A stretch of DNA of 64,000 nucleotides. It comes from Acidobacteria bacterium SCN 69-37 (GTDB lineage: Bacteria > Acidobacteriota > Vicinamibacteria > Vicinamibacterales > SCN-69-37). This document shows, one piece after another, positions 8,383 through 17,163 of the stretch. How positions within the stretch are numbered: the first letter of the stretch is position 1; every line of letters begins with the position of its first letter. The notes below the pieces were generated by a model that saw only the letters and a program-made list of their open reading frames with translations, had not been told where the DNA came from and made no database searches. The stretch covers positions 21,685-85,684 of the forward strand of contig MEDJ01000008.1 of the NCBI GenBank assembly GCA_001724025.1, in the 5' to 3' direction. The translations under genes were made by a program, and so were the position numbers.

Positions 8383-8466
8383 GGCCGGCCGGACGGCCGA
8401 ATCGATGACTCCGGCGGTCGACGCCGCGGCTTCGGCCCGGTGACGGCTGCCGGAGTTCTTTTTTTG

Positions 8467-9735
8467 CCGATGATCACCATACCCCCCGTTCTCGAACGCC
8501 TCGCACACCGTTATCCGTCCGTGCTGGTCGACGCCGTCACCAGTCACGATCCCGGCCGCCGCATCGTCGCCGTCAAGAACGTCACGGTGAACGAGGAGTA
8601 CTTCCAGGGGCACTTCCCGGGAACGCCGGTCCTGCCCGCCGTGCTGATGATCGAGGCGCTGACGCAGGCGGCCACGCTGCTGGTGGCCGGCACCGACGCG
8701 GAGGGACGACGGGCGCGGCTGCGGGGCGTGGACAAGGCCAAGTTCCGGCGCCAGGTCGTGCCGGGTGACCGCGTCGAACTCGAGGTGGCGATGGGCCGGC
8801 GGCGCGGCGCGGTCGTCCGCGCACGGGCCGTGGCGTCGGTCGACGGCCACGTGGTGGCCGAGGCCGAACTGGTGCTCGCGTTCGAGCGCGTGCCGCGGCC
8901 TCGCGAGGCCGCGTTCCCGGGCGCCGACGTCCACGAGACGGCCATCGTCCACGAGGGCGCCGTGATTGGCGAGGGGACCGTGGTCGGGCCTCACGCGATC
9001 GTCGGGCCGCAGGTGGTGCTCGGCCGGCACTGCCACGTCGGGGCGTCGGCCATCGTCGAGGGCTACACGACGATTGGCGATCGTACCGAGATCTACCCGT
9101 TCGCCTCGATCGGGCTCGTGCCGCAGGATCGGAAGTTCCAGGGCGAGGTGACGAGGCTCGTCATCGGCCAGCACAACATCTTCCGCGAGTTCGTCACGAT
9201 CCACAGGGGCACGGCCGGGGGCGGCGGCGTCACGACGATCGGCGACAGCAACCTGTTCATGGCCTACGCGCACGTGGCGCACGACTGCCACGTGGGCGAC
9301 TCCACGATTTTCGGCAACGGCGCCACGATCGGCGGCCACGTCACGGTGGAGGATTTCGCGACGATCAGCGCGTACTCCGGCGTGCACCAGTTCTGCCGGG
9401 TCGGACGCCACGCCTTCATCGGCGGCTACACGGTCGTTACGCGCGACGCGCTGCCGTACGCGAAGACGGTGGGCAACCGCGCGCGGATCTACGGGGTCAA
9501 CACGATCGGCCTCGTCCGGAGCGGCTTCAGCCCGGAGTTGATCGGCAAGCTCGGCCGGGCGTACCGGCACCTGTTGCAGCACAATACGAGCAGGGCGCTC
9601 GAGCTGATCGAGCGCGATCCGACGCTGGTGGCCGACGAGGTGAGCTATCTCGTCAACTTCATCCTGTCGGCCAAGCGCGGCGTCATCCTCCGGCGGCCCT
9701 CGCGGCGCGTCGACGATCAGATCGAGACGGAATGA
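8467..9735 (+). CDS. Fused 3-hydroxyacyl-ACP dehydratase (FabZ) / UDP-GlcNAc acyltransferase (LpxA)
   Basis: N-terminal 'YFQGHFPGTPVLPAVLMIEALTQAA' (FabZ); C-terminal hexapeptide repeats with 'FREFVTIHRGT' and 'AYAHVAHDCHVGD' (LpxA) in one frame. Start assumed at the second Met; ORF opens at 8440. Confidence 0.9.
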   Translation, partial: PMITIPPVLERLAHRYPSVLVDAVTSHDPGRRIVAVKNVTVNEEYFQGHFPGTPVLPAVLMIEALTQAATLLVAGTDAEGRRARLRGVDKAKFRRQVVPGDRVELEVAMGRRRGAVVRARAVASVDGHVVAEAELVLAFERVPRPREAAFPGADVHETAIVHEGAVIGEGTVVGPHAIVGPQVVLGRHCHVGASAIVEGYTTIGDRTEIYPFASIGLVPQDRKFQGEVTRLVIGQHNIFREFVTIHRGTAGGGGVTTIGDSNLFMAYAHVAHDCHVGDSTIFGNGATIGGHVTVEDFATISAYSGVHQFCRVGRHAFIGGYTVVTRDALPYAKTVGNRARIYGVNTIGLVRSGFSPELIGKLGRAYRHLLQHNTSRALELIERDPTLVADEVSYLVNFILSAKRGVILRRPSRRVDDQIETE

Positions 9736-9738
9736 GTC

Positions 9739-10563
9739 GTGGCGATCGGGCTGATCGCGGGTAACGGGACGTTTCCGTTCCTCGTGCTGCGGGCGGCGCG
9801 ACGGCTCGGCCACGAGGTCGTCGTGGTCGCGGTGCGCGGCGAGGCGTTTTCCGACCTCGAGGCCCTGGCCCGCGAACTCGGGGGCACGACGTTCGAGTGG
9901 ATTTCGCTCGGCCAGCTCGGGCGCTGCATTGCCACGCTGCGGCGGCACGACGTGCGGCGAGCCGTCATGGCCGGACAGGTCAAGCACGTCAAGCTGTTCA
10001 CCGACGTGATGCCCGACTTCACGATGCTCGGCGTGCTCGGCCGCCTGGTCACGAAGAACACCGACGCGCTGATCTCCGGGATCGCCGACGCGTTGGCCCG
10101 CCAGGGCATCACCCTCATGGATTCCACCGATCTGCTGGCCGACCTGCTGGCGCGCCCCGGCGTACTGACGCGGACCGCGCCGTCGGCCGCGATGTCGGCC
10201 GATTTCGCCTTCGGCTATCCGATTGCCGACGCGATCGGCGGGCTCGACATCGGCCAGACCATCGTCGTGAAGGACCGTGCGGTGGTGGCCGTCGAGGCGA
10301 TGGAAGGCACCGACGAGGCGATCCTGCGTGCCGGCCAGCTCGCCGGTCCGGGCGCCCGCGTCGTGAAAGTGGCCAAGCCGCGGCAGGACATGCGCTTCGA
10401 CGTCCCTGTCGTGGGGCTGACGACGATCGAGACGCTGCGGACGGCGGGTATCGACGGCCTGTCGATCGACGCGGGCCGCACGCTGGTGCTCGATGGCGAC
10501 GACTTCATCAGGGCGGCCGACGAGGCCGGCATCGTGGTGGTCGGTCGGGAGGCCGCGTCGTGA
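9739..10563 (+). CDS. lpxI: UDP-2,3-diacylglucosamine pyrophosphatase LpxI (DUF1009)
   Basis: 'IGLIAGNGTFPFLVLRAARRLGHEVVVVA...VMAGQVKH' with conserved C-terminal 'KPRQDMRFDVPVVGLTTIETL'. Confidence 0.88.
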   Translation: MAIGLIAGNGTFPFLVLRAARRLGHEVVVVAVRGEAFSDLEALARELGGTTFEWISLGQLGRCIATLRRHDVRRAVMAGQVKHVKLFTDVMPDFTMLGVLGRLVTKNTDALISGIADALARQGITLMDSTDLLADLLARPGVLTRTAPSAAMSADFAFGYPIADAIGGLDIGQTIVVKDRAVVAVEAMEGTDEAILRAGQLAGPGARVVKVAKPRQDMRFDVPVVGLTTIETLRTAGIDGLSIDAGRTLVLDGDDFIRAADEAGIVVVGREAAS

Positions 10564-11528
10564 CGGACGCGCCGCTCCTGCGCACCGCCGTGGTCGGCGT
10601 CGGACACCTGGGCCGGCATCACGCGCGCCTGCTCGCGACGATGCCCGGCACGCAGTTCGTGGCCGCCGTCGACCTCGATCGCGCGCGGGCCGAGGCAGCG
10701 GTCGCCGGCACGGCGGCCGAGGCGCTCGTCGATCACCGTGACCTGTTCGGCCGCGTCGACGCGGTAACCGTGGCCGTGCCGACCGCTGCGCACCTCGACG
10801 TGGCGCGCGCGTTCCTCGACCAGGGCATCCACGTGCTGGTCGAGAAGCCGATGGCGACCTCTGTGGCCGAGGCCGATGCGCTGCTCGCCGCGGCGGCGCG
10901 TCGCGGCGTCACGCTGGCCGTCGGGCACGTCGAGCGGTTCAACCCGGCCATCGAAGCGGCGCTGGCCGTGCTGCAGCAGCCGCGCTTCATCGAAATCGAT
11001 CGGCTCAGCGGTTTCCCCGAGCGCAGCCTCGACATCGATGTCATCTTCGACGTGATGATCCATGATCTCGATCTGGTCCTGGCCATCGATCGCAGCGGTG
11101 TGGCCAGCGTCGAGGCGGTCGGCGTGCCGGTGCTGACGTCGCGCGTCGACATCGCGAACGCGCGCGTGCGGTTCGCGTCGGGCTGCATCGCGAACGTGAC
11201 GGCCAGCCGCATCAGTCGCGATCAGGTCCGGAAGGTCCGCTGCTTCCAGCCGGACATGTACGTCTCGGTCGACGCCGGCGCGCGGGAACTCGAGGTCTGG
11301 CGCCTGCGCCGCTCTGACGGAGTACGTCCCGCGATCGAGGGCGGGCCCGTCGAGGTAGAGCAGGATGAACCGCTGCGGCGGGAACTGGCCGACTTCGTCG
11401 ACGCCGTGCGCACGGGGCGGCCGCCGCGGGTGACGGGCGAGGCTGGCCGCGACGCGCTGGCGCTGGCCGCGCGCGTGACCCGCGCGATCGAGGCCGGGCC
11501 GGTGGCCACAGGAGGACAGGCAGGATGA
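10560..11528 (+). CDS. Gfo/Idh/MocA family oxidoreductase
   Basis: GTG start overlapping the lpxI stop; 'TAVVGVGHLGRHHARLL' Rossmann, 'VLVEKPMATSVAEAD', 'VGHVERFNPAI'. Confidence 0.87.
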   Translation: MTDAPLLRTAVVGVGHLGRHHARLLATMPGTQFVAAVDLDRARAEAAVAGTAAEALVDHRDLFGRVDAVTVAVPTAAHLDVARAFLDQGIHVLVEKPMATSVAEADALLAAAARRGVTLAVGHVERFNPAIEAALAVLQQPRFIEIDRLSGFPERSLDIDVIFDVMIHDLDLVLAIDRSGVASVEAVGVPVLTSRVDIANARVRFASGCIANVTASRISRDQVRKVRCFQPDMYVSVDAGARELEVWRLRRSDGVRPAIEGGPVEVEQDEPLRRELADFVDAVRTGRPPRVTGEAGRDALALAARVTRAIEAGPVATGGQAG

Positions 11529-12424
11529 CGGCGCACGCACTGGGATCGCTCGAGGCTCGGCTGGCGCGGGGAGAGACGGCCACGCGCGAAGACGTCGCGA
11601 GTCTGTGCCGGGGCCAGGACCTGGTGAGCATCGGCGTCATCGGCGATCTGGTCCGGCAGGCGTGCACGGGCACGCGCGTGACCTACGGGCGCGTGCTGTC
11701 GTGCGAGGGCGACGTGCCGGACGCGATCGGGCAGGCCGGAGAGGTCCGGCTCGTCGGCACGCCCGCGTCGATCGACGACGCGCGTCGCCGCGTGCGCGCG
11801 GCGGTGGCCAGGGCTGGTGGCCGCGTGGTGACCGGGTTCTCGCTGGCCGACCTCGTCTCTCTGGCCGGTGACGATCGCGATCGTCTCCGCGGCGTGGCGG
11901 CCGACCTGGCGCAGGACGGGCTCGTGGCCGTAGCCGAGGTCGCAATCGACAGGGCGATTTCGGATGCCGCGGCGATCGCGCAGGTGCAGGCCGTGCGGGC
12001 CGGCGGGCTCGAGACCTGGCGCCTCACCATCGACGACGCCGAGGGGCTCGACGTCCGGATGGCGCTGATCGAACGGGCCCGGGCCGTGCAGGAGGCGACT
12101 GGAGCGGTGAGGGCCTTTGCGCCGCTGCCGCGGCGCGATCCGCGTGGCACGCCGTCGACAGGCTACGACGATGTGAAGACAGTGGCCGCGGCGCGGGTGC
12201 GGTGTCCAGACATCGAGGTGATCCAGATCGACTGGCCGCTCTACGGACCCAAGCTCGCGCAGGTGGCGCTGACGTTCGGCGCCGGCGATCTCGACGGCAT
12301 CTCCCCGTACGACACGAGCGATCTCGGCCCGCGGCGCGCGCCGGTCGAGGACATCCACAGGCAGATCCGGGCGGCGGGCGGTGAGCCTGTCGAGCGCGAC
12401 GCCACGTATCGTCCGAGAGGCTGA
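11525..12424 (+). CDS. MqnE-like protein lacking the radical-SAM cysteine motif
   Basis: C-terminal 'YGPKLAQVALTFGAGDLDGIS...IRAAGGEPVERDATY' is MqnE-like; N-terminal 'DLVSIGVIGDLVRQACTGTRVTYGRV' aligns with MqnE but the CxxxCxxC segment is missing. Stop/start overlap with upstream gene. Confidence 0.8.
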   Translation: MTAHALGSLEARLARGETATREDVASLCRGQDLVSIGVIGDLVRQACTGTRVTYGRVLSCEGDVPDAIGQAGEVRLVGTPASIDDARRRVRAAVARAGGRVVTGFSLADLVSLAGDDRDRLRGVAADLAQDGLVAVAEVAIDRAISDAAAIAQVQAVRAGGLETWRLTIDDAEGLDVRMALIERARAVQEATGAVRAFAPLPRRDPRGTPSTGYDDVKTVAAARVRCPDIEVIQIDWPLYGPKLAQVALTFGAGDLDGISPYDTSDLGPRRAPVEDIHRQIRAAGGEPVERDATYRPRG

Positions 12425-12425
12425 C

Positions 12426-13238
12426 ATGGTGCGGCTCGGCGCTGTCAGCTACCTCAACGTCAGGCCGCTCGTCGCCGGCCTGGCGCACGACCCCGACGTG
12501 TCGCTGCGCTTCGACGTCCCGTCTGTCTGCGCGCGGCTGCTCGGCGAGGGGATCATCGACCTGGGCATGGTGCCGTCGATCACCTGGCTCGATCGGCCCG
12601 GGCATCGCATCGTGCCGGGCATGTGCATCGGGTCTGACGGACCTGTCGCGTCGGTCGCGCTCTTCACGCGCCGGGCGATGACCGATGTCCGCACCGTGGC
12701 GCTCGATGCGTCGTCGCGGACGTCGGCGGCGCTGGTCCGCATTCTCTGCCGCCGCTACTTCGCCATCGATCCGGTATTCCTGACGCAGCCGCCCGACGTG
12801 GACGCGATGCTCGGCCGGGCCGATGCCGCACTGCTCATCGGCGATCCGGCGCTGTTCCTCGATCACCGGGCCCTCGGGCTCGACAAGATCGATCTCGGGG
12901 CGCTGTGGACCGGGATGACAGGACTGCCGTTCGTGTGGGCGTTCTGGTCCGGTCGGGCCGATGCGGCCTCGCCGGCAACGGTGGCCCGTCTGCAGGCGGC
13001 TGCGGCGGACGGCGCCGCCGATCTCGATCGCATTGCCGCGGCCTACTGCGAGGACGAGCCGTCGCACGTCCCCGTGGCGCGTCAGTACCTGCGCGAGCAC
13101 ATGCGCTACGGGTTCGGACCGCGCGAGATCGAGGGGCTGCGCCGGTACTACAGCGAGGTCGCGGCGCTGGGTCTGGCGACCCATGGTGCGCGCGATCCCG
13201 AGTTCTTTGCCGGACCCGACACGCCGCCGGCCGGCTGA
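12426..13238 (+). CDS. mqnA: Chorismate dehydratase MqnA
   Basis: 'VRLGAVSYLNVRPLVAGL', 'IIDLGMVPSITW', 'LLIGDPAL', 'GLPFVWAFWSGR'. Confidence 0.92.
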   Translation: MVRLGAVSYLNVRPLVAGLAHDPDVSLRFDVPSVCARLLGEGIIDLGMVPSITWLDRPGHRIVPGMCIGSDGPVASVALFTRRAMTDVRTVALDASSRTSAALVRILCRRYFAIDPVFLTQPPDVDAMLGRADAALLIGDPALFLDHRALGLDKIDLGALWTGMTGLPFVWAFWSGRADAASPATVARLQAAAADGAADLDRIAAAYCEDEPSHVPVARQYLREHMRYGFGPREIEGLRRYYSEVAALGLATHGARDPEFFAGPDTPPAG

Positions 13239-13262
13239 AGGCTTCGCATAGAATTGTCGGAC

Positions 13263-14471
13263 ATGAGTGTGGACGCGATGGCCGACCGGATCCGCGCAGG
13301 CGCGCGTCTGTCGTTCGACGAGGCTGTCGTCCTCTACCGCGAGGCGCCGACGAGCCTGCTGGGGCGTCTCGCCGATGCCCGTCGCCGTGCGCGGCACCCG
13401 GATGGCATCGTCACCTACATCATCGACCGCAACGTCAACTACACGAACGTGTGCGTGGCGCGGTGCCGGTTCTGCGCGTTCTATCGTCCCGTCGGATCGG
13501 CTGAAGGCTACACGCTCGGCTTCGCCGAGATTTTCCGGAAGATCGAAGAGACGATCGCGCTCGGCGGCGAACAGCTGCTGCTGCAGGGCGGGCACAACCC
13601 GGACGTGCCGCTGGCGTGGTACGAGGATCTGTTCCGCCAGGTCAAGGTGCGGTATCCGGCCTTCCGCCTGCACGCGCTCTCGCCGCCGGAGGTGCTGCAC
13701 ATCTCGCGGCTGTCGCAGCTGCCGGTCCCGGTCGTCATCGAGCGGCTCGTCGCGGCAGGCCTCGACAGCATTCCGGGCGGCGGTGCCGAGATTCTCGTCG
13801 ATCGCGTCAGGAAGATTCTGCACTGCTACAACAAGGCGTCGGCCGACGAGTGGCTCGACGTCATGCGGCACGCGCACCGGGCCGGGCTGCGCACGACGGC
13901 CACGATGATGTACGGCACGGTCGAGACGATGGAGGAGCGGCTCGAGCATCTGTACCGGCTGCGCGATCTCCAGGACGAGACCGGCGGGTTCACGGCGTTC
14001 ATCGCGTGGAGTTTCCAGCCGCACCACACCGAACTCGGCGGCATCGAGGCGACGGGCGTCGAGTACCTCCGCACGCTCGCCATGGCGCGCCTGGTCCTCG
14101 ACAACTTCGAGAACCTCCAGGCGTCGTGGGTCACGCAGGGCGGGAAGGTCGGCCAGCTCAGCCTCGCGTACGGGGCGAACGACATGGGCAGCGTGATGAT
14201 CGAGGAAAACGTCGTGCGCGCGGCCGGGGCCGAGTACTGCATGGACGAGTTCGAGGTCGTCCGCAACATCGAGAACGCGGGGTTCGTGGCCAGGCGCCGG
14301 AACATGCACTACGACATCCTCGGCGGGCCGATCTTTCGCGAACGCGCGGTGCCGCGCATGCTCGAACTTGCCGTGGCCCGCGCCGACGGCCAGGCCGGCG
14401 AGTCCGACGATCTCCGCGGATACGAGGCCCGCAGCACGGGAGGGCGCCGACGCCGGTCGGCGACGTCGTGA
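13263..14471 (+). CDS. mqnC: Cyclic dehypoxanthine futalosine synthase MqnC (radical SAM)
   Basis: Intact 'NVNYTNVCVARCRFCAFYR', 'GGQLLLQGGHNPDVPLAWYEDLF'-like region, 'MMYGTVETMEERLEHL'. Confidence 0.93.
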   Translation: MSVDAMADRIRAGARLSFDEAVVLYREAPTSLLGRLADARRRARHPDGIVTYIIDRNVNYTNVCVARCRFCAFYRPVGSAEGYTLGFAEIFRKIEETIALGGEQLLLQGGHNPDVPLAWYEDLFRQVKVRYPAFRLHALSPPEVLHISRLSQLPVPVVIERLVAAGLDSIPGGGAEILVDRVRKILHCYNKASADEWLDVMRHAHRAGLRTTATMMYGTVETMEERLEHLYRLRDLQDETGGFTAFIAWSFQPHHTELGGIEATGVEYLRTLAMARLVLDNFENLQASWVTQGGKVGQLSLAYGANDMGSVMIEENVVRAAGAEYCMDEFEVVRNIENAGFVARRRNMHYDILGGPIFRERAVPRMLELAVARADGQAGESDDLRGYEARSTGGRRRRSATS

Positions 14472-14477
14472 CGCGCC

Positions 14478-15683
14478 ATGTTCTACGCGTGCCGCTGGCT
14501 GCTGCCGATCGATCGCCCGCCCATCGAACACGCCTGGCTTGAAACAGCCCATGGCGTGATCCGCCGTCTCGGCGAGGGCCCACCCCCGGCGCCCGCCGAG
14601 AATCTCGGCGACGTGGTCGTGATGCCCGGCCTGGTCAACGCGCATACGCACCTCGAATTGAGCTGGATGGCGGGGCAGGTCGCGCCGGCCGCGTCGCTCG
14701 TCGCCTGGATCCGCGCGATGCTGACGCTGCGCCGATCGGGGGCGCCGGGCGGACAGGCGCGCGAAGCGCAGGCGGTCGGCGAAGCGCTGGCCTCGATGCA
14801 CGCGTCGGGCACGGTCCTTGTGGGCGACATCTCCAACAGCCTGATGACGCCAGCCCTCATGGCACGCGCCGGAATGGGCGGCGTCGTGTTTCACGAGCTG
14901 ATTGGCTTCGACGTCATCGATCCGGTCAGCGTGGTCAGCGATGCGATCGGACGCCTCGGCATCGTGCACGGCCAGATCGACAGAGCGGTGCCGCTCGTGC
15001 GTCTGTCTCTGGCGGCGCACGCGCCCTATTCGGTGGCGCCTTCGCTCTTTCGCGAGATCGCGGCCCGCGTCCCGGACGGCCCGCTATCCGTGCACCTGGC
15101 CGAATCGGCCGATGAGCTGGCCTTCCTCCGGACGGGCCGCGGACCGATGCGCGACCTGCTCGACGATCTCGGCTCGTGGACGCCCGCCTGGTCGGCGCCC
15201 GGTGGTGGTCCGGTCGAGTACCTCGCGCAGCAGGGGTATCTGCGGCGCGGCCTGCTGGCCGTGCACGGCGTGCACCTGGCTGACGACGACCTGTGGCGGC
15301 TGCGCGAAGCCGGCGCCACGCTGGTCACGTGTCCGCGCAGCAATCTCTGGGTGGGGGCCGGCATGCCGCGCATCCCGCATTTCTATGCCGCGGGTCTTCC
15401 GGTGGCCATCGGCACCGACAGCCTGGCGTCCGTCGATTCGCTGAGCCTGTTCGATGAACTCGCCGAACTGCGGCGGATTGCCCCGGACGTGACGGCGGCG
15501 GCGCTGCTGGCCAGCGCAACGCGCGTCGGCGCCGAGGCGCTGGGGTTCGGCCAGACGCACGGCACGATTGCCGCGGGCAAGACCGCGGCCCTGCTTGCCG
15601 TCGACATCCCGGCCGGCGTGCGCGATGTGGAAGAATACCTGGTGAGCGGCGTACCGTCGTCTGCCGTTCGCCACCTGTCGTGA
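14478..15683 (+). CDS. Amidohydrolase, putative aminodeoxyfutalosine deaminase
   Basis: 'VVMPGLVNAHTHLELSWM', 'VHGVHLADDDLWRLREAGATLVTCPRSNLWVG', 'AIGTDSLASVDSLSLF'; embedded in mqn cluster. Confidence 0.83.
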   Translation: MFYACRWLLPIDRPPIEHAWLETAHGVIRRLGEGPPPAPAENLGDVVVMPGLVNAHTHLELSWMAGQVAPAASLVAWIRAMLTLRRSGAPGGQAREAQAVGEALASMHASGTVLVGDISNSLMTPALMARAGMGGVVFHELIGFDVIDPVSVVSDAIGRLGIVHGQIDRAVPLVRLSLAAHAPYSVAPSLFREIAARVPDGPLSVHLAESADELAFLRTGRGPMRDLLDDLGSWTPAWSAPGGGPVEYLAQQGYLRRGLLAVHGVHLADDDLWRLREAGATLVTCPRSNLWVGAGMPRIPHFYAAGLPVAIGTDSLASVDSLSLFDELAELRRIAPDVTAAALLASATRVGAEALGFGQTHGTIAAGKTAALLAVDIPAGVRDVEEYLVSGVPSSAVRHLS

Positions 15684-16537
15684 TGCCCGGCCGCCTGCAG
15701 ACGTACGCGTCGTTCGTCCGCGTCAGCCACTCGGTCTTTGCGCTGCCGTTCGCGCTGGCCGGGGCGCTGCTGGCGTCGCGGATCGTACCGCTCACCTGGT
15801 CGCGCGTCGGCTGGATCGTGGCCTGCATGGTCACGGCGCGCAGCGCCGCGATGGGGTTCAATCGGCTCGCCGACGCCACCTGGGACGCGCGCAATCCCCG
15901 GACCGCCTCGCGTGAACTGCCGCGCGGGGCCCTGTCGCGTCGCGAGGCCATCCTCTTCATCGTCGTCATGTCGGTGGCGTTCGTCTGGTGTGCGGCGCAG
16001 CTCGGCTGGGTCTGCCTGGCGCTGGCGCCGGTGGCGCTGGCCATCGTTTTCTGGTATTCGCTCGCCAAGCGCTACACGAGCTACACGCAGTTGTTCCTGG
16101 GCCTCGCCATGGCCGTGGCCCCGGCCGGCGGCTGGATTGCGGCCGGCGGGCCGGCGCAGATCGAGCCGTGGCTGCTCGGGCTCGCCATCGGCGCGTGGGT
16201 GGCCGGCTTCGACATCCTGTATGCGTGCCAGGATCTCGAGTTCGATCGGCGCGAGGGGCTGCGATCGATGCCCGTGCGCTTCGGTGTCGCACGCGCGATC
16301 GCGATCTCGCGCGGACTGCACCTGGTCACGGTCATCGCGCTCGCGCTGGTCGGCCAGCTCGCCGGGCTCGGCACCGTCTACGCGGTCGGCGTCGGACTGG
16401 TGGCGGTCCTGCTGGTCTACGAGCAGTCACTCGTGAGCGCCGCGGATCTGTCGCAGGTCAAGCGGGCCTTCGATCTCAACGGTTGGGTCGGCCTGCTGTA
16501 TCTGGCCGCGATGGCCGTGGACGTGTACGTCGCATGA
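15680..16537 (+). CDS. UbiA-family prenyltransferase (MqnP-like)
   Basis: 'MGFNRLADATWDARNPRT' and 'YACQDLEFDRREGLRSMPVRFG' Asp-rich motifs; many hydrophobic segments. Confidence 0.9.
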   Translation: MMPGRLQTYASFVRVSHSVFALPFALAGALLASRIVPLTWSRVGWIVACMVTARSAAMGFNRLADATWDARNPRTASRELPRGALSRREAILFIVVMSVAFVWCAAQLGWVCLALAPVALAIVFWYSLAKRYTSYTQLFLGLAMAVAPAGGWIAAGGPAQIEPWLLGLAIGAWVAGFDILYACQDLEFDRREGLRSMPVRFGVARAIAISRGLHLVTVIALALVGQLAGLGTVYAVGVGLVAVLLVYEQSLVSAADLSQVKRAFDLNGWVGLLYLAAMAVDVYVA

Positions 16538-17163
16538 CGACGCCCGTGGACGGTCGGCGAGCAGGACGGATCGCCATCGGCGTGACCGGGGCGAGCGGAG
16601 CCATCTACGCCGTGCGCACGATGGCCGCGCTGCTCGAACGCGGCTGCCATCTCGATCTCGTGGTCAGCGACTACGGGCGCCGGCTGCTGGTCGAAGAGAT
16701 CGGCGCCGAGGTTCGGGCCGAGCGGCTGCAGGTCACCCTCGCCGAGCGCTACGGCCCCGGGGTGATGGCCGGGACGATCACGCTGCACGCGCATCGCGAT
16801 CTCGGATCGGCGCTGGCCAGTGGCGGTCATCGCTGCGCCGCGATGGTCATCGTGCCGTGTTCGATGAAGACGCTGGCGGGCGTGGCGCACGGGCTGTCGC
16901 AGAATCTGATCGAACGCGCGGCCGACGTGATGTTGAAGGAGCGGCGCCGGCTGATCGTCGTGCCGCGTGAAACGCCGATGAGCCTGCCCGATCTGCGCAA
17001 CATGGTCGCGTGCGCCGAGGCCGGTGCGATGGTCCTGCCGGCGATGCCGGCCTTCTACCAGAAGCCGCAGACGATCGACGATCTGGCGGCGTTCATCGCG
17101 GGCAAGATTCTCGACGCGCTCGGGTTCGAGCAGGATCTCTTTCCCGCCTGGACGGGGGCGTGA
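16534..17163 (+). CDS. UbiX-family flavin prenyltransferase
   Basis: 'RIAIGVTGASGAIYAVRTM', 'MVIVPCSMKTLAGVAHGLSQNLIERAADVMLKERRRLIVVPRETPMS'. Confidence 0.92.
   Translation: MTTPVDGRRAGRIAIGVTGASGAIYAVRTMAALLERGCHLDLVVSDYGRRLLVEEIGAEVRAERLQVTLAERYGPGVMAGTITLHAHRDLGSALASGGHRCAAMVIVPCSMKTLAGVAHGLSQNLIERAADVMLKERRRLIVVPRETPMSLPDLRNMVACAEAGAMVLPAMPAFYQKPQTIDDLAAFIAGKILDALGFEQDLFPAWTGA

Follow-up and report, generated by a model that had tools for sequence, protein, structure and literature searches.

Gene organization of the locus

The window, i.e., the whole 64-kb stretch of DNA from Acidobacteria bacterium SCN 69-37 that was analyzed, carries a complete open reading frame (ATG to TGA, 11525–12424, + strand, 299 amino acids), here named PSE. 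According to its reading frame, profile searches, AlphaFold and Foldseek, it codes for a paralogue of MqnE which lacks the cluster site and is predicted to form a complete (beta-alpha)8 barrel. PSE overlaps by 4 nt (ATGA, 11525–11528) with an upstream gene for a Gfo/Idh/MocA oxidoreductase (10557–11528, +; frame, NCBIfam and Pfam), and it is followed by mqnA (12426–13238, +; chorismate dehydratase family, PF02621, 154 bits), whose start codon (ATG 12426) lies 1 nt 3' of the PSE stop codon. Next come mqnC (13254–14471, +), which encodes an intact radical SAM protein with the CxxxCxxC motif (PF04055; TIGR03699, 474 bits, over cut-off), and an amidohydrolase gene, probably for an MqnX-like aminofutalosine deaminase (14478–15683, +; PF01979; best model NF006269 with 135 bits, under the cut-off of 320). 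The last two genes code for a UbiA-type prenyltransferase, probably MqnP (15680–16537, +; TIGR01475 283.6 bits, over cut-off; MqnP models 207–262 bits, below cut-off), and a UbiX-like flavin prenyltransferase, probably MqnM (16534–17163, +; frame read by eye, start near 16534 assumed). On the upstream side, lpxI is located at 9739–10563 (+; PF06230, PF17930). Besides, FabZ (residues 17–147) and LpxA (163–417) are fused in one frame at 8440–9735 (+), both over their NCBIfam cut-offs. The fabZ-lpxA, lpxI and Gfo/Idh genes are also part of the PSE operon in the order Vicinamibacterales. Promoter and terminator scans found nothing.

An earlier note on this DNA had described an intact PSE frame with 4-nt coupling to the upstream gene and an operon sibling, mqnC, that kept its motif, and both descriptions were borne out. 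It had also placed mqnA right after PSE, which is correct, although the gap is 1 nt and not 2 nt. As it had claimed, neither mqnE nor mqnB was found within the 64-kb window. The genome-wide search that it had proposed located an intact mqnE on another contig (C23:62661–63707, 473.8 bits, over cut-off), as well as mqnB (C12:11199–11789) and mqnD (C12:11810–12511), which lie side by side. Together with mqnA and mqnC of the window, these genes cover the route from chorismate to 1,4-dihydroxy-6-naphthoate without PSE. The possibility that PSE is a stand-in for a missing MqnE, MqnB or MqnD was rejected for this genome, because all three are present. In about half of 40 relatives, TIGR03664 (MqnB) had no match despite the presence of other futalosine genes; MqnB in these organisms may have diverged, or another nucleosidase may take its place.

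PSE is a homologue of MqnE without radical SAM features

NCBIfam models covered only the C-terminal half of PSE. The MqnE model TIGR03700 matched residues 175–296 with 63.7 bits (E 1.3e-17) against a curated cut-off of 434.55 bits, which leaves PSE outside the MqnE family by score, and the second-best model was that of MqnC (TIGR03699, 44.3 bits, cut-off 428.1). This half (12047–12412, +; strands 6–8, CofH_C-like) is the part recognizable by sequence, and it holds Q234, D236, W237, Q246, D255, D257, R270 and R271. CofH_C (PF19288) matched all 30 PSE members at E ≤ 0.01 (best 2.1e-12) and gave the window protein 26.7 bits, just under the gathering score of 27. Profile-profile comparison (hhalign) revealed full-length homology between PSE and MqnE (99.9%, E 4.4e-37, 294 columns), and the match to MqnC was weaker (E 1.7e-31). 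The best PDB matches of the PSE model in Foldseek were four chains of P. heparinus MqnE (6xig/6xi9, E 2.9e-17, TM 0.80), followed by HydE, PylB and HydG with E near 1e-9.

The cluster is the defining feature of radical SAM enzymes. The CxxxCxxC motif was absent from PSE, from 30 of 30 orthologues and from all of the best 80 of the 228 GTDB loci that encode a PSE relative. Radical_SAM (PF04055) had no match in the window protein at E ≤ 1, nor among the 30 PSE members at E ≤ 0.01. These searches support PSE as an MqnE-derived paralogue that would be incapable of radical SAM chemistry. The earlier note had reached a similar view by eye, from a likeness to MqnE and a missing CxxxCxxC segment; profile, profile-profile and structure searches now all place PSE with MqnE, and the HMM searches it had proposed returned TIGR03700 in the C-terminal half and no PF04055. 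It had named a lack of structural similarity to MqnE as evidence to the contrary, and the structure prediction instead gave a complete barrel with MqnE as the closest PDB structure.

The AlphaFold model of PSE, built with 30 orthologues, contained eight strands and accompanying helices (pLDDT 94.3, pTM 0.92); a model of the intact MqnE from this genome reached pLDDT 88.8. When strands were assigned with DSSP in both models, the linker between strands 1 and 2 was 12 residues long in PSE (residues 61–72; 11705–11740, +) vs 43 residues in MqnE (69–111), where the alignment places the cluster loop with the invariant C71, C75 and C78, as well as helix 95–103. In these models, PSE shows a clean excision of the [4Fe-4S]/SAM loop and of helix 1, and the barrel is predicted to close where they are missing. 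PSE also lacks a short helix that follows strand 4 in MqnE (188–194, behind the PGGG motif).

Distribution and selection

PSE orthologues were found in nearly all of 40 relatives searched and in 129 of 149 Vicinamibacterales genomes, with PSE matches far stronger than any match to MqnE or MqnC. Eight genomes had no homologue of the family (MqnE, MqnC or PSE); seven of these (G023, G033, G278, G285, G291, G297 and G303) belonged to family f11 and the eighth was G039. MqnA/MqnD were also absent from G023, G033 and G039. These eight genomes may use another quinone route. The other 12 genomes contained MqnE or MqnC and gave no PSE match. A PF02621 search detected at most MqnD in all but one of the 12, and therefore mqnA is missing there too. 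A contig end lies within PSE in G294, where residues 241–295 remain in front of mqnA; the G305 contig breaks off within mqnA. All 12 were rejected as exceptions to PSE retention, since either the assembly lacked the mqnA operon or a contig end interrupted it, and no intact mqnA-mqnC operon without PSE was found among the 149 genomes of the order.

The records of the best 80 of the 228 GTDB loci were mostly titled Acidobacteria, several being named Vicinamibacterales or Vicinamibacteraceae, and a few oddly named ones with the same operon are probably mislabelled bins. PSE preceded mqnA in 78 of these 80 loci, and the spacing between the PSE stop and the mqnA start was −4, i.e., a 4-nt overlap, in 43 of the 78.

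In 12 close pairs, dN/dS of PSE was 0.09–0.26, indicating purifying selection; the values were somewhat higher than those of MqnA (0.03–0.23) and MqnC (0.04–0.15) in the same pairs. Mean pairwise identity over 23 loci was 0.45 for PSE, 0.56 for MqnA and 0.77 for MqnC. Thus, PSE evolves faster than its neighbors, yet it is clearly constrained. The suggestion in the earlier note that the gene is retained rather than decaying is supported by order-wide presence of the cysteine-less form, dN/dS values that are not near 1, and the conserved slot directly before mqnA. Of the observations that the note had listed as contrary to its reading, none was made.

Changed residues of the barrel

We compared 85 PSE with 23 MqnE sequences and found that several positions constant or nearly so in MqnE hold other residues in PSE, namely R75 instead of H, Q234 instead of K, V259 instead of T and D236 instead of Y/F, which are 96–99% constant. 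The MqnE-invariant H114, K294 and T319 thus correspond to R75, Q234 and V259, and the likewise invariant PGGG (179–182) and H226/E228 are deleted or changed. Additional near-invariant residues of PSE were P210, Y214, P242, K243, G268, R270 and R271, and E73, R224, W237, Q246, D255 and D257 were near-invariant in both proteins. Across 30 PSE sequences, 27 columns were invariant. Along strands 2, 7 and 8, residues 73/75, 234/236 and 255/257/259 show the alternation typical of lumen-facing side chains, and, judging from these strand positions, the changed residues may line a ligand pocket. A remnant or bare scaffold is not expected to fix new residues at exactly these places; the conservation pattern is better fitted by a pocket that was rebuilt rather than one that decayed.

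Origin of PSE

In two genomes from a sister order of the same class (L126 and L127), the operon reads mqnE-mqnA-mqnC, and the mqnE stop runs into the mqnA start at a junction nearly identical to that of PSE and mqnA. The occurrence of mqnE in the PSE slot suggests that PSE is probably an operonic mqnE copy turned to another use. In the phylogenetic tree, PSE formed one clade (100/100), which fell on the side of MqnE (93/99) and whose stem was very long (2.86); AU tests rejected none of the unions of PSE, i.e., with MqnE of its own order (p 0.27), MqnE of the sister order (0.34) or MqnC (0.18). The simplest account would be that the Vicinamibacterales ancestor carried two mqnE genes, one in an mqnE-mqnA-mqnC operon and the other elsewhere, so that the operonic copy was free to change. 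This copy would then have shed the [4Fe-4S]/SAM loop together with helix 1, the barrel would have closed up, and the pocket at the substrate end would have been re-specified.

Other motif-less proteins of the family in the phylum

A scan of the phylum revealed that the motif is also missing from other CofH-family proteins. In family f23, four genomes encode such a protein of 302–316 amino acids (L124:5363-6310 (-), L122:4719-5624 (+), L125:4457-5395 (+) and L123:1652-2596 (-)), for which the best model was MqnC (133–294 bits, cut-off 428.1). In L122 and L124 it adjoins a cellulose-synthase-like glycosyltransferase gene, outside any mqn operon, and besides an intact MqnE the f23 genomes encode a divergent, motif-bearing MqnC/CofH-like protein. 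The f23 proteins formed their own clade (98/98), and their union with PSE was not rejected by the AU test (p 0.44), so their independence rests on sequence likeness to MqnC. These sequences suggest that one or more further CofH-family paralogues without a cluster originated elsewhere in the phylum. In family f41, an MqnE-like protein of G213 (L154:3948-5108 (+)), directly upstream of mqnC, has Pro in place of the first motif Cys (PxxxCxxC), and a fragment of the same kind occurs at a contig end in G235 (L155:2866-3345 (-)). None of the 15 genomes of this family, whose assemblies are incomplete, yielded an MqnE over cut-off.

Possible functions of PSE

The best explanation of these observations is that PSE is a neofunctionalized pseudoenzyme of the CofH/MqnE/MqnC family. 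With regard to its role, we favor a non-radical partner of MqnA that would bind 3-enolpyruvylbenzoate, with a probability of roughly 0.4. 3-Enolpyruvylbenzoate is the product of MqnA and the substrate of MqnE. PSE would perform no radical chemistry; it would bind MqnA and/or the MqnA product in the old pocket, and hold the intermediate, meter it or pass it on for use by the intact MqnE, whose gene lies elsewhere. In a mirror-tree analysis with LpxI and Gfo/Idh as controls, the partial correlation was 0.54 for PSE-MqnA (subsampling 0.41–0.65), 0.40 for PSE-MqnX and 0.03 for PSE-MqnC, values that are a hint only because genome pairs are not independent and operon neighbors share history. This weak signal, which seems to point to MqnA and not to MqnC, agrees with the tight conserved junction of PSE and mqnA. 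We favor the MqnA partner because of this hint, the junction, and the fact that the MqnA product is the substrate of the parent enzyme MqnE. On the other hand, MqnA homologues of other phyla occur without PSE, and no PSE-MqnA or PSE-MqnC fusion was present in the best 80 of the 228 GTDB loci, both of which count against a partner. At one locus, a single open frame (L091:5297-8002 (+)) matched MqnC (125–367) and the MqnX-like amidohydrolase (512–893); it could reflect either a genuine fusion or accidental read-through.

A decaying pseudogene or an assembly error was rejected as extremely improbable: loss of the catalytic residues and evolution faster than that of the neighbors would suit it, but the frame is open in over a hundred independent assemblies, orthologues are under purifying selection, and invariant columns persist. 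PSE could also be a retooled enzyme, whose barrel catalyzes a non-radical step in or close to the futalosine pathway, e.g., hydrolysis, isomerization, deamination or the removal of a side product. Such a role, which we consider somewhat doubtful, would account for the new invariant charged residues R75, D142, D236, K243, R270 and R271 beside the retained E73, D255 and D257, several of which appear to face the lumen, and enzymes that have taken on a new substrate usually evolve fast but under constraint. However, the MqnA, E, B, C and D steps are all accounted for in the genome, leaving no gap to fill, and neither Pfam nor NCBIfam recognizes a metal or catalytic motif in PSE. It is unlikely that PSE pairs with MqnE or MqnC via the retained family interface as a structural or allosteric subunit. 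It has the full-length fold of this family and shares an operon with mqnC, and a radical SAM heterodimer of related subunits, Dph1-Dph2, is known (PMC11048331); nevertheless, PSE evolves far faster than MqnC, with no residual co-variation between the two, mqnE lies on another contig, and MqnE and MqnC of other phyla work without such a partner. Still less probable is a role in regulation or sensing, apart from the chemistry of the pathway, such as that of a ligand sensor, or a function tied to the upstream lpx/Gfo genes. Although the operon includes these genes, PSE is lost together with the mqn genes in genomes without the pathway, and its partial correlation is higher with the mqn partners than with Gfo/Idh.

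The earlier note had proposed a non-catalytic MqnE paralogue. Absence of the radical SAM site, retention and an intact mqnE elsewhere agree with it, and the roles it listed (partner, scaffold, intermediate channelling or repurposed enzyme) remain plausible suggestions. It is conceivable, and we propose only tentatively, that PSE is an obligatory, hitherto undescribed component of the futalosine pathway throughout the order, either a non-radical enzyme or an MqnA-bound intermediate carrier, which acts on a pathway intermediate. We file PSE as a candidate conserved pseudoenzyme of the radical SAM family with changed function. No description of a cluster-less MqnE was found in a search of open papers, where absence is not proof. 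A whole order in which a descendant without the cluster persists alongside intact copies of MqnE and MqnC provides a natural test of the barrel without radical chemistry. In addition, PSE suggests an extra component in a pathway thought to be complete, in an abundant group of soil bacteria, and annotation pipelines that score homology may wrongly label it as MqnE.

Comparison with known systems

The aminofutalosine synthase MqnE (TIGR03700; 6xig, 6xi9) shares with PSE the barrel, the N-terminal helices and the C-terminal CofH_C region, as well as the retained E, W, Q, D and D residues, and in the sister order mqnE occupies the operon slot of PSE. In contrast to MqnE, PSE has no CxxxCxxC, cluster loop, helix 1, PGGG motif or MLYGHxE motif, and the H, K, T and Y/F positions are altered. 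The cyclic dehypoxanthinyl futalosine synthase MqnC (TIGR03699) belongs to the same family and operon, but the operon MqnC is intact and its model matches PSE more weakly. CofH and CofG of F420 biosynthesis, from the same superfamily, are two related radical SAM barrels that act in series; both keep their clusters, whereas PSE has none. Dph1-Dph2 shows that a radical SAM enzyme can consist of two related subunits that form a heterodimer. Both of its subunits bind clusters (PMC11048331), whereas the site in PSE is lost outright. The fold class and pathway of Dph1-Dph2 are unrelated to those of PSE.
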